Part shown: positions 19,041-27,901 of the stretch, piece after piece
Numbering within the stretch: position 1 is the stretch's first letter
How the letters are laid out: each line of letters begins with the position of its first letter
Assembly (NCBI GenBank): GCA_028874215.1
Contig: JAPPLF010000022.1
Location: 1-64,000 of the forward strand
DNA: 64,000 nucleotides
DNA from: Acidobacteriota bacterium
Lineage (GTDB): Bacteria; Acidobacteriota; UBA6911; RPQK01; JAJDTT01
Reading direction: 5' to 3'
Program-made: the position numbers and the translations under genes
The notes under the pieces: model-generated
What the model saw: only the letters and a program-made list of their open reading frames with translations
Told to the model about the DNA's origin: nothing
The model's database searches: none

Positions 19041-21023
19041 ATGACCTGGAATCGGGTGGGACTCGTTCTGATGGTCCTTCTGGGCGCATTCTGTACACCC
19101 GCCCCCAGGCAACCCGGCTTCAAGGTCGTGGTCCTGGGCTTCGACGGCGTGGACCCCGATCTGGTGGATCAATGGATCGAAGAGCTTCCCACCATCCGCC
19201 GCCTGGGGGAGCAGGGGACCCTGTCGACCCTGGGCACCACCAACCCTCCCGAGTCCCCCGTGGCTTGGGCCAGCTTCGCCACCGGACTCAATCCGGGCCG
19301 GCACGGAATCTTCGACTTCCTCCGCCGGGACCCCGCCACCTACATGCCCGACATCGGCCTCGTGAAGGTGGAAAAGCCCCGCTTTCTGTTCAAGACCATC
19401 CCCATCCGGGGAGCGCGGGTGACCAACAACCGCAAGGGCGTTCCCTACTGGGAGCAATTGGACCGGGGCGGCATCGTCACCGCCAATCTGCGGCTTCCCC
19501 TGGAGTTTCCGCCCCGGTCCCTCGACCACGGGACCACTCTGTCGGGGCTCGGCGTGCCCGATGTCCGGGGGACGTGGGGGACCTACTTCTACCTCTCCAC
19601 CGACGTGAGCCGCTGGGATCTGCAGGATACCGAGTTCGGCGGCCGGGTGATTCGGCTGGAGGGAGAGGACGGACGTTTTCAGGCGCTGATCGACGGACCC
19701 GCCGACCCCAGAGAGGAGGAACTGGTCCGGCTGACGATTCCGCTGTCGGTGGAGTTGGACCCGCAGTCGACTGCCCTGACGATCAGGCTCCAGGATCAGG
19801 AAGAGGAGGTCGACGAGGGGCAGTGGAGCGACTGGTTCCGTTTCGTCTTTTCTGCGGGACCTCTGGTCAAGATCCGGGGCATCAGCCGTTTCTATGTCCT
19901 GGAGACGTTCCCCGAAGTGAGGCTCTACCTGATGCCCATCAGTCTCGATCCGGCCGGTCCCGTTCTGCCCCTCTCGACTCCGGCCGGTTACTCGGGTGAC
20001 CTCGCCTCCTGGCTCGCCCCGTTCAAGACCCTGGGTTGGATCCATGAGACCTGGGGCCTCAACGAAGAGCAGATCGACGAGCAGGTCTTTCTTGAGGACC
20101 TCTTCCGCAACATGAACCATCTGGAGCGGCTCCTGATGCACGAGCTGGACCGGGGTGAAGCCTCCCTGTACACGGCCGTCTTCACGGCCACCGACAGCGC
20201 CGCACACATGTTCTACCGCTTCATCGATCCCCAACATCCCCGTTACGACGCGAAGGGAGCTCAGGCCTACGGCAGAGCCGTGTTGAACGTCTACCGGAAG
20301 ATGGACTCTATCGTCTCCCAGGTCGTGGAGCGCCTGGACCCCCAGGATCTGCTGCTGGTGGTTTCCGATCATGGGTTTCATTCCTGGCGCAAGGAATTCA
20401 ACACCAACACCTGGCTTTTGGAGAATGGGTTCCTGGTTCTCAAAGGCGTCCGGGCCGACACCGATCTGAAGCGGCTGGAGCAGGTCTATCGCGGCGGGAG
20501 CTTCTTCCCCAACGTCGACTGGAGCAGGACCCAAGCGTATGCCCTGGGCCTGGGCCATATCTACGTGAACCTGAAGGGGCGGGAGGGTCAGGGCATCGTC
20601 GATCCCGGCCGCGACTACATGGATCTGGTCCGGGACATTTCTCGGGAAATTCTCGAGTATCGAGACCCGGAAACCGGAGAAGCGGTGGTGCAGAACGCAT
20701 ATTTCAGGGAAGACATCTACTCCGGCGATGAAATCGAGCATGCCGGGGATATCCAACTCAGCTTCCGATCCGGTTACCGGACTTCGTGGCAGACGGCCCT
20801 GGGCGCCGTGCCGGAGCACGTCCTCGTCGCCAACCTCAGGAAATGGAGCGGTGACCACTGCGCCTCCGATTTTTCGGACACCGAGGGCTTCGCCGTCTCC
20901 AATCGCAAGATACTTTCGGAGAATCTGCACATCATGGACGTGGCGCCGACGCTGTACCGGTTGTTTCAGGTCGAGGATCCCGGACCCCTGGACGGCCGGG
21001 CCTGGGCGTTCGAATCGCCATGA
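19041..21023 (+). CDS. Type I phosphodiesterase / alkaline phosphatase-superfamily lipoprotein
   Basis: 660 aa exported metallo-phosphoesterase. Signal peptide MTWNRVGLVLMVLLGAF ends at C18, a lipobox-like site. Metal ligands and nucleophile of the nucleotide pyrophosphatase/phosphodiesterase family are visible: GFDGVDPD, the Ser/Thr region PVAWASFATGLNPGRHGIFDF, TDSAAHMFYRF, VSDHGFHSW and a late WSGDHCASD. The substrate is unknown; relatives hydrolyse nucleotide or lipid phosphodiesters. Its stop overlaps the SDR gene start by four bases. The co-transcribed genes act on prenyl lipids, so a lipid substrate is my guess. Confidence 0.88.
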   Translation: MTWNRVGLVLMVLLGAFCTPAPRQPGFKVVVLGFDGVDPDLVDQWIEELPTIRRLGEQGTLSTLGTTNPPESPVAWASFATGLNPGRHGIFDFLRRDPATYMPDIGLVKVEKPRFLFKTIPIRGARVTNNRKGVPYWEQLDRGGIVTANLRLPLEFPPRSLDHGTTLSGLGVPDVRGTWGTYFYLSTDVSRWDLQDTEFGGRVIRLEGEDGRFQALIDGPADPREEELVRLTIPLSVELDPQSTALTIRLQDQEEEVDEGQWSDWFRFVFSAGPLVKIRGISRFYVLETFPEVRLYLMPISLDPAGPVLPLSTPAGYSGDLASWLAPFKTLGWIHETWGLNEEQIDEQVFLEDLFRNMNHLERLLMHELDRGEASLYTAVFTATDSAAHMFYRFIDPQHPRYDAKGAQAYGRAVLNVYRKMDSIVSQVVERLDPQDLLLVVSDHGFHSWRKEFNTNTWLLENGFLVLKGVRADTDLKRLEQVYRGGSFFPNVDWSRTQAYALGLGHIYVNLKGREGQGIVDPGRDYMDLVRDISREILEYRDPETGEAVVQNAYFREDIYSGDEIEHAGDIQLSFRSGYRTSWQTALGAVPEHVLVANLRKWSGDHCASDFSDTEGFAVSNRKILSENLHIMDVAPTLYRLFQVEDPGPLDGRAWAFESP

Positions 21024-21943
21024 GGTGCCTGGTTACGGGCGGGACAGGCTTCCTGGGGAGCGTTCTGGTGCGCAGGCTCCGGGAGCTGGGGCACCAGGTG
21101 ACCGTCGCTTCACGGTCCCGGGGCCAGGACGTGACCCGTGTTTCCACCCTGGAGCCGTGCTTCCGGGAGATCCAGGCGGTGTTTCACCTGGCTGCCCTGG
21201 TGCAGTCCCGGCCCGGCCCATTCCTTCGCGTCAACGTCGACGGGTTGAGAAACGTCCTGGAACTGGCCCGGCGCCATGGGGTTGCCCGGCTGGTCCACGT
21301 CTCCTCCTTCACCGTCTTCGGCCCCAGCGGCGACGGGGTCCATACCGAGGAACGCATGCCGGACCGCAACCGGTTCTTCCACGGGTACGACCAGAGCAAG
21401 TACGAGGCCTTTCGAATGGCCGGCCAGTGGAAGGACCGGCTCTCCATGAACACGGTCTTTCCCACCGTCGTCTACGGCCCCGGGCCGATGACGGAGGGAA
21501 ACCTGCTGGTGCGGCTGCTCCGGCGCTGGAAGAAGCTTCGAATGGCGGCATTGCCGGGCCGCGGGGCTCCTTGTTGGAACTTCGTCTATGTGGACGACGT
21601 CGCCGACGCCCTGATTCGATGCCTGGATGCCGATGCCGGGGAGGACTTCATCCTGGGAGGCGAAAACCGGACGCTCCAGGATCTGTTCGGGACCTTTCGG
21701 AAGGTCGCGGACGTGCCGATGGTTCCCTTGGGCCTCCCGGATCGGCTGTTTCGCGCGGGCGCCCGTTTGGAGGACTGGAGCGCTCGGCTGCGGGGCGCCT
21801 CGCCGTTGCTGGTCCCGTCGACGGCCGAGTTCTTTCTCCGGAACTGGCGATTTTCCTCGGGCAAGGCCGGCGCCCAATTGGGCTACTCGCCCCGCTCCCT
21901 GGAGGAGGGCTTGATCAGCACCAACCGGTGGATGGCTTCGTGA
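21020..21943 (+). CDS. NAD(P)-dependent epimerase/dehydratase-type SDR
   Basis: 307 aa extended short-chain dehydrogenase. Cofactor motif GGTGFLG at residues 7-13, catalytic YDQSK (Tyr/Lys) near residue 128, substrate-side motif NFVYVDDVADAL. Similar to sterol/flavonol-type and sugar epimerase SDRs; the substrate cannot be read from sequence. Overlaps both neighbours (ATGA upstream, GTGA downstream), so it is part of a tightly coupled operon with the phosphodiesterase and the kinase fusion. Confidence 0.88.
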   Translation: MRCLVTGGTGFLGSVLVRRLRELGHQVTVASRSRGQDVTRVSTLEPCFREIQAVFHLAALVQSRPGPFLRVNVDGLRNVLELARRHGVARLVHVSSFTVFGPSGDGVHTEERMPDRNRFFHGYDQSKYEAFRMAGQWKDRLSMNTVFPTVVYGPGPMTEGNLLVRLLRRWKKLRMAALPGRGAPCWNFVYVDDVADALIRCLDADAGEDFILGGENRTLQDLFGTFRKVADVPMVPLGLPDRLFRAGARLEDWSARLRGASPLLVPSTAEFFLRNWRFSSGKAGAQLGYSPRSLEEGLISTNRWMAS

Positions 21944-23271
21944 GGAGCAGAGGCGAGGACCTGAGGCAACTGGAACATGTACTGCCCCTGGCTTTCGCCT
22001 TTCTCCTTCCCTACGTGGACTACAGGCTGATCCTCTGCCTGAGCCTCCTTTCGTTCTTCTATGCCGCGTTCATATCTCCCCGTTGGATCCGGGTGACGAC
22101 CCGCGATTCGGAAGGGGAGGCGGGATTTTCCCCCGGCAAGCTCTACTACGCCTTCGGGATCATGATGCTGCTCATCCTGTTTCGCGAGCGCCTTCATGTC
22201 GCTGCGGCGGTCTGGGCGGTTCTGGCGGTGGGAGACGCCGTTTCCAACCTGGCGGGGCGGCGGTGGCCCTGGGTCCGACTCCCCTACAATCGGGAGAAGA
22301 GCCTGGGCGGTTCCATCGGCTTCTTTCTGGCGGCGGCGGTGGCATCCTGGGTCCTCCTGGTCTGGAACCTGCCGCAAGCAGATGGCAGTTCCAATCTCAA
22401 GCTGGCCGCCTGTTGCATTTTCGGATCGCTGGTCTGCGCTTTGGCCGAGTCGTTGCCGAATCTGGTGGACGACAATCTGGTCATCGTGGTGGTCGGCGCC
22501 GGGATCTTCCCCTTGCTCCTGGACGTCCCCGGCCTGATTCCCGAGTTGTCCGCGCCCTGGTCCCACGCGGTCGGAATCAACTTCCTCCTGGCCGGCCTCG
22601 CCGTGATGGTGGGTTGGATCTCGTGGCGCGGCGCCGCCGCCGGCGTGGTCCTGGGGATCGGCGTCTATCTCTCGGCGGGTCCCGCAGGCTACGTCGTCCT
22701 CTGCCTCTTTTTCTTCCTGGGCGGGTTCAGCACATGGTTGGGGACGGGACGCAAGGAGGCCCTGGGGGTGGCCGAAGAGAATCTGGGGCGGAGAGGCGTC
22801 GCCAACGTCTTGTCCAAGGGTCTGGTGGCCGGCATCCTGGCGCTTTTGTTTTTCTGGACCGACAGCACCGTGGCGCGGGTGGCCTACACCGGCGCCCTGG
22901 CCGCCGCCGCCATGGACACGGTCGCTACCGAGATCGGACAGTGGTTGGGACGGGCTCCCCGGGATCTGCGGTCCTTCAAACCGGTTGCCGTGGGGACTCC
23001 CGGCGCCGTTTCACTCGCGGGCACGCTGGCCGGGCTGGTTGCGGCCCTGGCGGTCTCGTCGGTGCCGGCCGTATGGAACTGGATCCCTGCGTCGGCGCTG
23101 CCGGCGTTGGGGGCCGGGGCCATTGCGGGGAATGGAGTCGAGTCCTGGCTGGCCGGCGCCGGGAGGGACGCCCCGGGCCGGCACCAGGTGCTCAACTTGT
23201 ACAATACGCTGGCGGGAGCCTGCGCCAGCGGCGGAATCTGGATCGTGTTGAGTTCCCCTGCAACCCCTTGA
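21940..23271 (+). CDS. Phytol/dolichol kinase-like domain fused to DUF92 (VTE5-VTE6-like) membrane protein
   Basis: 443 aa polytopic membrane protein made of two families. Residues about 1-200 resemble the CTP-dependent phytol/dolichol kinase group, with GDAVSNLAGRR (98-108) and LPYNREKSLGGSIGFF (114-129). Residues about 210-443 are DUF92/TMEM19, with RRGVANVLSKG, AAMDTVATEIGQWLG, GTLAGLVAAL and AGNGVESWLAGAG. In plants and cyanobacteria these two activities (VTE5 phytol kinase, VTE6 phytyl-phosphate kinase) convert free phytol to phytyl-diphosphate. GTG 21940 overlaps the SDR stop (GTGA) with GGTGGA upstream, which fixes the start. The UbiA gene next to it could use the product. The prenyl substrate is inferred. 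Confidence 0.85.
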   Translation: MRSRGEDLRQLEHVLPLAFAFLLPYVDYRLILCLSLLSFFYAAFISPRWIRVTTRDSEGEAGFSPGKLYYAFGIMMLLILFRERLHVAAAVWAVLAVGDAVSNLAGRRWPWVRLPYNREKSLGGSIGFFLAAAVASWVLLVWNLPQADGSSNLKLAACCIFGSLVCALAESLPNLVDDNLVIVVVGAGIFPLLLDVPGLIPELSAPWSHAVGINFLLAGLAVMVGWISWRGAAAGVVLGIGVYLSAGPAGYVVLCLFFFLGGFSTWLGTGRKEALGVAEENLGRRGVANVLSKGLVAGILALLFFWTDSTVARVAYTGALAAAAMDTVATEIGQWLGRAPRDLRSFKPVAVGTPGAVSLAGTLAGLVAALAVSSVPAVWNWIPASALPALGAGAIAGNGVESWLAGAGRDAPGRHQVLNLYNTLAGACASGGIWIVLSSPATP

Positions 23272-23358
23272 AGAATGGAACGCCCCCGAAGGATTCACGA
23301 ACCTGCGGAATCGCTGCCGATGGTCCACGCCTGGCAGGCTTAAAGCACCCGCCGTGTC

Positions 23359-24285
23359 ATGCCTGAATCAATCGTCCGTTACTTCCGGTTCATTCGCCCC
23401 TTCACCCTGCTGGTGCCGGCGTTGGGGATGGTCTGCGGCGCCCTCATGGGACTTTCGGCGGATCCGAAGGGAGTCTCCGATTGGAGCCCGGGGGCCGAGA
23501 CTATCGTTCTGCGGATCGTCGCCGGGGCCGTTCTGGCAGCCGCGTTGAACGCCTTTTCCAACGGGCTCAACCAGATCTTCGACCAGGAGATCGACCGGAT
23601 CAACAAGCCTCACCGCCTGTTGCCCTCGGGCCGCATCTCCGGACCGGAAGCGTGGTGCCTCAGTCTGGCTTTCCTGGTCATCGCCCTGTTGCTGGCCGCC
23701 TGGATCAATCTCCAGTGTTTCTTCGTCGTTCTTGCAGGCGCCCTGGGAACCGTTCTCTACTCGGTGCCCCCGATTCGGACCAAGTCCCGAGGCATCTGGG
23801 CCAACCTGACCATCGCCCTGGTCCGGGGAACGCTGTTGCCGGTGGCCGGTTGGTCCACCGTGAAGCATGTGTTGCAGCCCGAGACCTGGATTCTCGGCGC
23901 GATCCTGGGAGCCTATTTTTTGGGGGCGGTCACGACCAAGGACTTCTCCGACGTGGAGGGGGACCGCCGGGGCGGCTGCCGGACGCTTCCCGTCATCTAT
24001 GGCGTGCAACGGTCGATCCGGATCATCGCTCCTTTCTTCGTCCTGCCGTTTCTGGCCCTCGTCCCCGGCGCGGTCTACGGGCTCCTGTCCGGACGGCCGT
24101 CGCTGCTGGCGGGCCTGGGACTGCTGCTCGCCGGTTGGGGCGGTTGGATCATCCTGCTGCTCGTGAGGTCTTCCCAGGAATGGGAGGGGAATCTGGAATG
24201 GGAGAACCATCCCAGTTGGCGGCAGATGTATCTCCTGACGCTGACGGCCTATATCGGCTTGGCCTCGGCCTATCTGTTGCGCTGA
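23359..24285 (+). CDS. UbiA-family prenyltransferase
   Basis: 308 aa, about nine membrane helices. The first Asp-rich motif NGLNQIFDQEIDRINKPHR carries N71, D75 and D79 (NxxxDxxxD) for prenyl-diphosphate binding. The second motif TKDFSDVEGDRRGGCRTLP is near residue 195. Family members transfer prenyl chains to aromatic quinone precursors, chlorophyllide, haem or glycerol phosphate. Placed 87 bases after the phytol-kinase/DUF92 fusion, which would supply prenyl-diphosphate. Which acceptor it uses cannot be told; homogentisate-type or naphthoate-type quinone formation are the main options given menG 3 kb downstream. The start ATG 23359 has no strong ribosome site. Confidence 0.88.
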   Translation: MPESIVRYFRFIRPFTLLVPALGMVCGALMGLSADPKGVSDWSPGAETIVLRIVAGAVLAAALNAFSNGLNQIFDQEIDRINKPHRLLPSGRISGPEAWCLSLAFLVIALLLAAWINLQCFFVVLAGALGTVLYSVPPIRTKSRGIWANLTIALVRGTLLPVAGWSTVKHVLQPETWILGAILGAYFLGAVTTKDFSDVEGDRRGGCRTLPVIYGVQRSIRIIAPFFVLPFLALVPGAVYGLLSGRPSLLAGLGLLLAGWGGWIILLLVRSSQEWEGNLEWENHPSWRQMYLLTLTAYIGLASAYLLR

Positions 24286-24975: not shown

Positions 24976-25959
24976 ATGAGCAAGATCCAAGTCCTTTTGA
25001 ATGGCCTGCGGCACCAGGCCGAACGCGGCGGTAGCGTGGCGGATCTGGTCCAGGATCTGGGGCTTGACGGGGGTCGGGTCGCGGTGGAGATCAATGAGCA
25101 GATCGTCCGCCGCAACCGGTGGGCCGGGCAGGAGATCCAAAGCGGCGATCGGATCGAAATCGTCCATTTCGTGGGAGGAGGGGCCGTGGAAGATACGTTG
25201 ACCATAGCCGGACGTGAGTATCGCTCCCGTTTGCTGGTGGGAACGGGAAAGTACGCGACATTCAGCCAGATGGAGCAGGCCCTGGAGGCCAGCGGATCCG
25301 AGCTGGTGACGGTAGCCGTGCGGCGCGTCAATATATCCGATCGAAGCCGGGAATCCCTCCTGGACTACATCGATCCCGACCGGTACCAGCTACTCCCCAA
25401 CACGGCCGGCTGCTACACGGCGGCCGAGGCGATCCGGTACGCCCGGCTGGGCCGGGAGGCCGGCCTGTCGAATCTGGTCAAGCTGGAGGTGATCGGAGAC
25501 GAACGCACGCTTTTTCCCGACAATGAGGCCTTGCTGGAAGCCACGCGCGTCCTGGTCAAGGAAGGATTCGTAGTGCTTCCCTACACCAATGACGACCCCA
25601 TCGTCTGCAAGCGGCTGGAGGATGCCGGTGCGGCGGCTGTGATGCCGCTCGGCGCCCCCATCGGTTCGGGCCTCGGCATTCAGAATCCCAACAACATCCG
25701 CATCATCCTGGAGTTCGCCTCGGTCCCCGTCATCGTCGACGCCGGCGTCGGGACCGCTTCCGACGCCACACTGGCCATGGAGCTGGGTGTGGACGGAGTC
25801 CTCATGAACACCGGGATTGCCGGGGCCGGGGACCCCGTATCCATGGCCAGGAGCATGAAGCTGGCCGTGGAGTCGGGTCGCCTGGCCTACAAGGCGGGCC
25901 GAATTCCCCGCAAGCTCTACGCTACGGCCAGCAGTCCCCTGGAAGGCGTGCTGAGCTAG
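24976..25959 (+). CDS. thiSG: ThiS-ThiG fusion: sulfur carrier protein and thiazole synthase
   Basis: 327 aa. Residues 1-69 are a complete ThiS beta-grasp sulfur carrier ending in HFVGGG (67-69). The frame runs on without a stop into ThiG, starting [23 protein letters not shown]. ThiG is a TIM barrel that makes thiamine thiazole from deoxyxylulose phosphate, dehydroglycine and ThiS-thiocarboxylate. Its Schiff-base Lys is in [10 protein letters not shown] and its phosphate-binding end is [13 protein letters not shown]. ThiS needs a free C-terminal Gly-Gly, so processing or an alternative is implied. A GTG at 25186 with GGGAGG seven bases upstream could initiate free ThiG internally. Bifunctional ThiS-ThiG annotations exist in databases. 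No other thi gene is nearby. Confidence 0.92.
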
Positions 25960-26052: not shown

Positions 26053-27144
26053 GTGAAGACGGTTCAGGTCAGCCTTCCCGGCCGCAGCTATGACATCCTG
26101 ATCGGTCCCGGTCTCCTGGCCCAGGTTCCGAGGCTGCTGAGGGACCGGGGGACGGCCCGGAGGCTGTTCCTGGTCTCCAATCCGGTGGTCCACGAACTCT
26201 ATGGCGAGACGTTGATGAAGGGTCTGGCGGAGTCGGGGTTCCGGGTGTCGGAGATCCTGATCCCGGACGGAGAAACCCACAAGTCGCTTCAAGCCGTCGA
26301 GCGGATCTACGGGAAGCTCGTGAGCGGGGGCGCGGATCGCTCGTCGGCCCTGGTGGCCCTGGGGGGCGGCGTGACCGGGGACATCGCGGGATTTGCCGCC
26401 GCCACCTTCATGCGGGGCATTCCGTACATCCAGATCCCGACTTCGGTGGTGGCTCAGGTGGACAGTTCAGTCGGAGGCAAGACCGGAGTCAACTACGGCT
26501 TGGCCAAGAATATGGTCGGTTCCTTCTGGCAGCCGAGCCTGGTCTGCATCGATCCCGAGACTCTCCACTCCCTGCCTCAGCGAGAGTATCAGTCCGGACT
26601 CTACGAGGTCTTCAAGTACGGCCTCATCCGTGACGCCGAATTCCTCGACTGGCTGAACGCGTCGCTGGAAGAGATCCAGGCCCGGAAATCCCTGGTGATG
26701 CAGCAGTTGATCCGGCGCTGCTGCCAGATCAAGGCCGAGGTCACGGCCCGGGACGAACGCGAATCGGATCTGCGGCGAATACTGAACCTGGGACACACTT
26801 TCGGTCACGGACTGGAATCCGCCGTCCGATTCCGGGGGGTGACCCACGGGGAAGCGATCGCCTACGGAATGATGGCTGCCGCTCATCTCTCGCATTGGCG
26901 CACCGGGCTGTCCCGGGAGTCACGGGACCGGGCGGTGCAGTCGATCCGGGAGATCGGGCCTCTGCCAAACATCGATACCGTCCCCACGAGCCGCGTCGTG
27001 GAGGCCATGAAGCGGGACAAGAAACGCCGGAATCAACGCACGGTCGTGGTGTTGCTGGCGGCGATCGGGATCACGGAAATTCGGGACGACATCCCGGACC
27101 GGGACCTGGCGCGGGCCTGGGACCAGGTGAAGCAACTGAATTAG
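26053..27144 (+). CDS. aroB: 3-dehydroquinate synthase
   Basis: 363 aa NAD- and Zn-dependent enzyme that converts DAHP to 3-dehydroquinate, second step of the shikimate pathway. Landmarks are DGETHKSL, the NAD-binding ALGGGVTGDIAGFAAATFMRG, TSVVAQVDSSVGGKTGVN, and the Zn ligands in ESDLRRILNLGHTFGHGLE and GEAIAYGM. The GTG start 26053 has AGGAAAGGAACC upstream. Shikimate products feed the quinone pathway to which the next gene belongs. Confidence 0.95.
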   Translation: MKTVQVSLPGRSYDILIGPGLLAQVPRLLRDRGTARRLFLVSNPVVHELYGETLMKGLAESGFRVSEILIPDGETHKSLQAVERIYGKLVSGGADRSSALVALGGGVTGDIAGFAAATFMRGIPYIQIPTSVVAQVDSSVGGKTGVNYGLAKNMVGSFWQPSLVCIDPETLHSLPQREYQSGLYEVFKYGLIRDAEFLDWLNASLEEIQARKSLVMQQLIRRCCQIKAEVTARDERESDLRRILNLGHTFGHGLESAVRFRGVTHGEAIAYGMMAAAHLSHWRTGLSRESRDRAVQSIREIGPLPNIDTVPTSRVVEAMKRDKKRRNQRTVVVLLAAIGITEIRDDIPDRDLARAWDQVKQLN

Positions 27145-27181: not shown

Positions 27182-27901
27182 ATGCAAGACAAGGAATCGG
27201 GGCGGATCCGCCGAATGTTCGGCGCCATCGCCCCCCGATACGACCGGGCCAACCGTCTGCTCTCGCTGTCCGTCGACCGGCATTGGAGACGGCTGACGAG
27301 GCGCGAACTGGAAGGCCGCCTGCCGCCGGACCCGCGGATCCTGGACCTTTGCACCGGGACCGGCGATCTGGCCCTGGAGCTCTCCAGCCTGGGTTCGGTG
27401 GTGGCCTGCGATTTCTCTCATCCCATGCTGATTTTGGGTATGAAGAAGGCATCCCGTTCCGCAGCCGGCCGCCGAATCTCATTCACCGAAGGGGACGCGC
27501 TGAGACTCCCGTTCCCGGACCGAACCTTCGACGCCGTCAGCATTGCCTTTGGATTGAGGAATCTGGAGAGCTATCGCCAGGGTCTGGCCGAAATGCACCG
27601 GGTTCTCCGTCCCCGAGGCGTGTTGGCCATCCTGGAGTTCACACTTCCCAATTTGCCGCTGTTCAGGTCGCTCTATTTGTTCTATTTCGTTCGGATCCTG
27701 CCCAGGCTGGGAGGTTGGATCTCGGGACACGGTCAGGCCTACGAATATCTCTCCCGGTCGGTGCGGCAGTTCCTCGCACCCGAGGATCTGGACCGGTTGC
27801 TCGGGAGGGCGGGGTTCCATCAGATCCGCCACCGAACCCTGTCTGCAGGGATCGCGTGTCTTCACCTGGGACGAAAACCGGCCTCGGGTGGGTTCCGGTA
27901 A
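27182..27901 (+). CDS. menG: Demethylmenaquinone / ubiquinone biosynthesis C-methyltransferase
   Basis: 239 aa SAM-dependent class I methyltransferase that methylates the quinone ring. Family signatures are visible: RMFGAIAPRYDRANRLLSLSVDRHWRR at the N-terminus, motif I LDLCTGTGDLAL, DALRLPFPDRTFDAVSIAFGLRN, and the UbiE C-terminal signature around YEYLSRSVRQF. 37 bases after aroB, probably the same transcript. The organism probably uses menaquinone, so menG is preferred over ubiE; sequence alone does not decide. Confidence 0.92.
   Translation: MQDKESGRIRRMFGAIAPRYDRANRLLSLSVDRHWRRLTRRELEGRLPPDPRILDLCTGTGDLALELSSLGSVVACDFSHPMLILGMKKASRSAAGRRISFTEGDALRLPFPDRTFDAVSIAFGLRNLESYRQGLAEMHRVLRPRGVLAILEFTLPNLPLFRSLYLFYFVRILPRLGGWISGHGQAYEYLSRSVRQFLAPEDLDRLLGRAGFHQIRHRTLSAGIACLHLGRKPASGGFR

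Follow-up and report, generated by a model that had tools for sequence, protein, structure and literature searches.

A candidate prenyl-alcohol activation and transfer module in Acidobacteriota and other bacterial phyla: a four-gene block with a tandem lipid-kinase-fold fusion and a separate UbiA subfamily

Gene content of the locus

In an Acidobacteriota genome (assembly GCA_028874215.1), positions 1 to 64,000 of contig JAPPLF010000022.1, hereafter the window (i.e. the whole stretch of 64,000 nucleotides that was analysed), carry a block of four genes encoding a phosphodiesterase (PDE), a short-chain dehydrogenase/reductase (SDR), a membrane protein fusing two kinase-like domains and a UbiA-superfamily prenyltransferase (Table 1). 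This order on one strand, already put forward in an original prediction made from the DNA alone, is confirmed by coordinates and domain matches. The PDE and SDR genes overlap by 4 bp at an ATGA joint, where the SDR ATG lies on the PDE stop codon, and the SDR and fusion genes overlap by another 4 bp at a GTGA joint, where the fusion GTG lies on the SDR stop codon, which suggests translational coupling of these three genes. The UbiA gene starts 87 bp after the fusion and ends 690 bp before a thiS-thiG fusion (thiSG). The module is bounded by the nuo operon, on the opposite strand, and by thiSG-aroB-menG; the block and both flanks are kept at 84-95% identity in two genomes of the same genus, and the block is divided between two contigs in a third one. 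The genome itself is a 5.7 Mb assembly resembling a metagenome-assembled genome (MAG).

The PDE belongs to PF01663, in the alkaline-phosphatase superfamily (109.5 bits vs. a cut-off of 23), retains invariant metal-site residues in the alignment (D35, D385/H389, D443-H444 and H606) and carries an N-terminal hydrophobic segment, i.e. it is predicted to be an exported type I phosphodiesterase. As for the SDR, the alignment gives an extended SDR with its active-site residues, namely invariant S95, Y123 and K127 (YxxxK).

The two-domain kinase fusion

The C-terminal half of the fusion matches DUF92 (PF01940) over residues 214-404 (E=2e-36, 125.9 bits vs. a gathering cut-off of 27.5), and the fusion misses the cut-off of the NCBIfam model TIGR00297 (110 bits vs. 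205.85). The N-terminal half passes the PF01148 (CTP_transf_1) cut-off in a homologue, G011 (28.0 vs. 24 bits). When compared by HHalign with a CdsA profile built from relatives, the N-terminal half scored 95.3% (E=2e-8), the C-terminal half 79% (E=2e-5) and UbiA, taken as control, below 1%; the two halves matched each other at 89% (E=2e-6). The AlphaFold model of the fusion (pLDDT 89, pTM 0.88) had CdsA (4q2g, foldseek probability 0.80) as the sole PDB match above 0.2 among the top 50 listed, with a non-significant E-value (E=0.55), so that it is the profile comparison that carries weight. Among 25 diverse members, invariant residues are found in both the N-terminal half (D99, G124, E170 and D178-N179) and the C-terminal half (K272, R285, D326-T327, E331 and G352). 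The CdsA signature HGGxxDRxD occurs in none of these 25 fusions vs. 15/15 CdsA controls, and a true CdsA is encoded elsewhere in the same genome.

Because of the profile matches, the invariant acidic residues in both halves and the absence of the CdsA signature, the fusion is best described, on profiles and model, as a tandem pair of lipid-kinase-fold domains, both halves being predicted to share the CTP-dependent lipid-kinase/CdsA fold. The claim of a phytol/dolichol-kinase-like domain joined to DUF92 is borne out by kinase-superfamily features in both halves, from profile comparison as well as structure. A DUF92 half lacking such features had been named beforehand as an outcome speaking against that claim; this half keeps them, and the halves resemble CdsA and each other. 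The fusion itself is not new, since the same two domains are joined in the SEC59-COG1836 fusion known in Methanosarcina (Makarova and colleagues; PMC5898192). In plants, phytyl-phosphate kinase activity has been demonstrated for the DUF92 family, VTE6 having been discovered there through comparative genomics (PMC9782597). A plasmid search for the fusion found none.

The UbiA subfamily

The prenyltransferase displays the motifs NQIFDQEIDRINKP and KDFSDVEGD. Its NCBIfam matches, namely ChlG, PRK12884, BchG, homogentisate phytyltransferase and digeranylgeranylglyceryl phosphate (DGGGP) synthase, all lie far below cut-off. It misses the cut-offs of chlorophyll synthase ChlG/BchG (129 bits vs. 313), of haem O synthase CtaB (TIGR01473; 52 bits vs. 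210) and of TIGR01475 (MqnP/UbiA-other; 67.8 bits vs. 180.8), as well as the equivalog cut-off of archaeal DGGGP synthase. Its relatives of solved structure are DGGGP synthase (the best, 6m31, E=6e-29) and ChlG. In a tree with reference sequences, built without characterised homogentisate prenyltransferases and with an unreliable placement of several long branches (chiefly CtaB), the subfamily makes up a clade of its own, distinct from ChlG/BchG, DGGGP synthase and MqnP/ApUbiA (support 96/96). Clustering with haem or archaeal lipid synthases, which had been set out as a possible refutation, is not observed, TIGR01473 being missed and the clade standing apart from DGGGP synthase.

Three further UbiA proteins are encoded in the same genome, i.e. 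an MqnP-like protein passing TIGR01475 (contig C15), a CtaB passing TIGR01473 (contig C66) and one beside eboE (contig C23). On the latter contig (L058, 7072-10102), an ebo-like locus separate from the module comprises a dehydroquinate-synthase-like gene, EboE (E=2.7e-134) and the UbiA gene.

Co-inheritance and rearrangement of the module

Co-occurrence was assessed in 80 genomes, i.e. the genome itself and 79 relatives; most are MAGs and absences are consequently soft. The UbiA subfamily is present in 27 of the 80 and the two-domain fusion in 29, the latter in 27/27 UbiA genomes vs. 2/53 others (p=3e-19) and, counted by family, in 16/16 with UbiA vs. 2/22 without (p=7e-9; Fisher tests in both cases, with shared ancestry incompletely corrected). 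As UbiA and the fusion lie on different contigs in 13 of the 27 genomes, this pattern is more than adjacency. With cut-offs picked once scores were seen (at least 700 summed bits for the PDE subfamily, E<1e-80 for the SDR subfamily), the PDE is found in 25/27 UbiA genomes vs. 2/53 others (by family p=2e-8) and the SDR in 18/27 vs. 2/53 (by family p=8e-6).

Beyond these relatives, scanning GTDB species with the UbiA alignment returned 220 stretches encoding relatives. The top 80 come mostly from Acidobacteriota, the others from Planctomycetota (Brocadia), Nitrospinota, Eisenbacteria, Krumholzibacteriota, Wallbacteria, Coatesbacteria, Omnitrophota and Myxococcota. Of these phyla, Planctomycetota (Brocadia), Nitrospinota, Wallbacteria, Eisenbacteria and Krumholzibacteriota show the module again, and the fusion or one or both of its halves were detected in 21 of 26 UbiA-bearing genomes picked mostly from outside Acidobacteriota. 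The SDR gene lies directly upstream of the fusion in Planctomycetota and Fischerbacteria; separate genes for the N-terminal half, SDR and C-terminal half follow one another in that order in Krumholzibacteriota, Eisenbacteria and Brocadiia; and the PDE gene directly follows UbiA in four planctomycete loci, a PDE gene being found close to the kinase genes in two other loci. Such independent rearrangements of the same parts across phyla make the strongest case for one pathway. Altogether, gene order, split and fused forms, and genome co-occurrence support the view, also held in the original prediction, that PDE, SDR, fusion and UbiA would act as one functional unit.

Two additional partners were recognised. 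Membrane protein X (A3, about 256 aa), which has no Pfam match and bears the conserved stretches EMFxWIxTGxGAE and NYMxFYV, follows UbiA in several phyla and is present in 13/27 UbiA genomes vs. 0/53 others (by family p=2e-5). A variant radical-SAM protein (A4; NF045502), with C130, C142 and C145 invariant, is encoded after UbiA in Wallbacteria, Deltaproteobacteria (Myxococcota) and Brocadiia, either directly or with X in between. In Acidobacteriota it co-occurs with UbiA, being present, at a cut-off likewise picked after scoring, in 16/27 UbiA genomes vs. 2/53 others (by family p=1e-7). Neither was found in the genus of the window, where they may be accessory or replaced.

Other neighbours were noted. 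In three genomes only (L265, 6450-9019, and again L266 and L269), genes for a methylthioadenosine phosphorylase, a PfkB-family kinase and protein X stand in a row. In one order, two-component regulator and carboxypeptidase-regulatory genes lie beside the module, a local feature. In the window, the thiS-thiG fusion holds ThiS (residues 6-69) and ThiG (residues 76-321) in one fused frame.

Table 1. Coordinates of the module, its flanks in the window and partner or neighbouring genes in other loci
Feature	Coordinates	Strand	Remarks
PDE gene	19041-21023	+	660 aa; PF01663 E=4e-31
SDR gene	21020-21943	+	307 aa; PF01370 E=2e-32
Two-domain membrane kinase fusion	21940-23271	+	443 aa; GTG start at 21940
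Fusion N-terminal half, dolichol/phytol-kinase-like (CTP_transf_1 clan)	21940-22539	+	
Fusion C-terminal half, DUF92 (VTE6/COG1836 family)	22540-23268	+	
UbiA-superfamily prenyltransferase, separate subfamily	23359-24285	+	308 aa; PF01040 E=2e-44
thiS-thiG fusion, flank outside module	24976-25959	+	neighbour within genus only
aroB, flank outside module	26053-27144	+	neighbour within genus only
ubiE/menG, flank outside module	27182-27901	+	neighbour within genus only
Protein X, examples	L080:7125-7895, L097:1627-2394, L123:1085-1831		
Variant radical-SAM, examples	L117:7923-9122, L123:1854-3044, L128:873-2084		
Envelope-gene neighbours of SDR-fusion pair	L151:1645-5613, L226:719-7313		LptD-like in L226; possible envelope link

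Proposed pathway and alternative readings

With gene order, domain identity, catalytic-residue conservation and co-inheritance established, the four genes probably form a pathway for prenyl-alcohol activation and transfer, for which we infer the reactions and their order as follows. The SDR would most likely make the alcohol from a prenal, as plant FLDH does upstream of FOLK, a likeness drawn at the level of enzyme class. The N-terminal half of the fusion, like VTE5, FOLK or dolichol kinase, would convert the isoprenoid alcohol into its monophosphate, and the C-terminal half, like VTE6, the prenyl monophosphate into its diphosphate, both steps being CTP-dependent. UbiA would then move the prenyl group from the diphosphate onto a membrane acceptor, which is probably neither a menaquinone precursor nor haem nor glyceryl phosphate, and the exported PDE would probably act beyond the inner membrane, cleaving a phosphodiester to release either the prenyl group or the acceptor.

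Several points weigh against this pathway, besides the non-significant structural match and the cut-offs chosen after scoring mentioned above. The N-terminal half of the window fusion has no match of its own in the Pfam search; the SDR subfamily is missing from 9 of the 27 genomes with UbiA; and the nearest NCBIfam model of the SDR, matched far below cut-off, is the sugar epimerase HpnA, so that the SDR family alone would leave the substrate unfixed. Among the 26 genomes picked mostly from outside Acidobacteriota, five show neither kinase half and five of the 21 positive ones give a weaker match to the N-terminal half only. In some Acidobacteriota, the cluster adjoins nucleotide-sugar genes. 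Finally, no clear geranylgeranyl reductase was found in the genome of the window, the sole sizeable family match, on contig C50, being below cut-off and reading by eye as an ordinary FAD oxidoreductase beside radical-SAM and CoA-ligase-like genes; this speaks against an endogenous origin of phytol.

The nucleotide-sugar neighbours bear on an unlikely alternative, i.e. the recycling of a bactoprenol-like polyprenol for envelope glycans, where the fusion would rephosphorylate the long-chain polyprenol, the SDR would work on sugars or sugar lipids and UbiA would make a glycan carrier or a prenylated sugar lipid. The SDR-fusion pair indeed lies downstream of rmlA, rmlD, GMD/LegB-like and LptD-like genes in Thermoanaerobaculia and Fischerbacteria, the resemblance of the SDR to HpnA fits a sugar substrate, and archaeal DUF92 genes adjoin uppS (PMC5898192). 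However, sugar-nucleotide genes do not adjoin the module in the window's own genus, in Krumholzibacteriota or in Brocadia, UbiA has aspartate motifs of the prenyl-diphosphate type, and its 25 best NCBIfam models do not include the decaprenylphosphoryl-5-phosphoribose (DPPR) synthase type. That the fusion halves belong to the CdsA fold family also raises the improbable case of lipid nucleotidyltransfer, where one or both halves would not be kinases but would make a CDP-lipid by CdsA chemistry; the missing HGGxxDRxD signature, the true CdsA encoded elsewhere and the phytyl-phosphate kinase activity of the plant DUF92 family (PMC9782597) all speak against it.

Two further alternatives concern the role of UbiA. 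The original prediction had noted menG and aroB on the same strand 2-3 kb downstream and taken them as a hint at a quinone, so that UbiA would be a quinone prenyltransferase of the menaquinone or respiratory-quinone pathway supplied with salvaged prenyl diphosphate; homogentisate phytyltransferase being among its better profile matches points the same way. While the position of these genes stands, the hint does not, since their linkage is confined to the genus and a separate MqnP-like UbiA on contig C15 passes TIGR01475; besides, roughly two in three of the searched relatives are without the UbiA of the module. The link was rejected and a quinone role is judged improbable. Least probable of all are bacterial ether lipids of archaeal type, with UbiA as a DGGGP synthase: its best solved-structure relative is that very enzyme (6m31), but geranylgeranylglyceryl phosphate synthase (PcrB) was not found in the genome and the UbiA clade is separate from DGGGP synthase, for which reasons this route was rejected too.

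On the whole, the earlier interpretation holds for the kinase fusion, for a UbiA that is neither a haem O synthase nor an archaeal DGGGP synthase and for the single functional unit, and fails for the quinone link. Building on the prenyl-alcohol pathway, a broader proposal can be put forward tentatively, at slightly less than even confidence: PDE, SDR, dual kinase and the new UbiA subfamily, joined in many lineages by radical-SAM and protein X, may constitute an undescribed multi-phylum pathway whose product, a membrane lipid or cofactor carrying a prenyl group, would be new. Judging by the conserved partners, Acidobacteriota, anammox Planctomycetota and several uncultured phyla would make a prenylated product distinct from the obvious quinones, from haem and from archaeal lipids.

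Comparison with known systems

According to a 2022 review, plants and cyanobacteria were the only organisms in which genes had been assigned to prenol salvage (PMC9782597). In the accessible literature, no bacterial pathway of this kind and no demonstrated role for the DUF92 genes of other bacteria were found; the statement that no bacterial system with this gene order had been described agrees with that literature, with the reservation that the kinase fusion was already known in Methanosarcina (PMC5898192). Since the operon is compact, with separable parts, and E. coli is without these kinase activities (PMC9782597), the bacterial pathway is directly testable there.

Regarding individual components, Mbar_A3310 from Methanosarcina barkeri shares the two domains in the same order and is a proposed isoprenoid kinase; its reported context is uppS, and linkage to an SDR, PDE or UbiA gene is not reported (PMC5898192). 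ChlG/BchG and archaeal DGGGP synthase share with UbiA the fold, the NxxxDxxxD and DxxxGD-type motifs and the nearest profiles; the UbiA of the module differs from them by its separate clade, by missing the curated cut-offs and by a context where no chlorophyll or geranylgeranylglyceryl phosphate synthase was found. EboC of the Ebo cluster is likewise a UbiA enzyme in a conserved bacterial cluster, but the apparent ebo locus is separate, on contig C23, and has a different UbiA.

The closest counterpart in overall logic is the plant salvage of phytol and farnesol, where a prenal is reduced to a prenol (FLDH, NADH-dependent), then phosphorylated to prenyl-P (FOLK/VTE5) and prenyl-PP (VTE6) (PMC13415981; PMC9782597). 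Dehydrogenase, first kinase, second kinase and UbiA-type prenyltransferase are shared in the same logical order; unlike its plant counterpart, the module is bacterial and operonic, its kinases are fused, an exported PDE comes in addition and its UbiA belongs to another subfamily.

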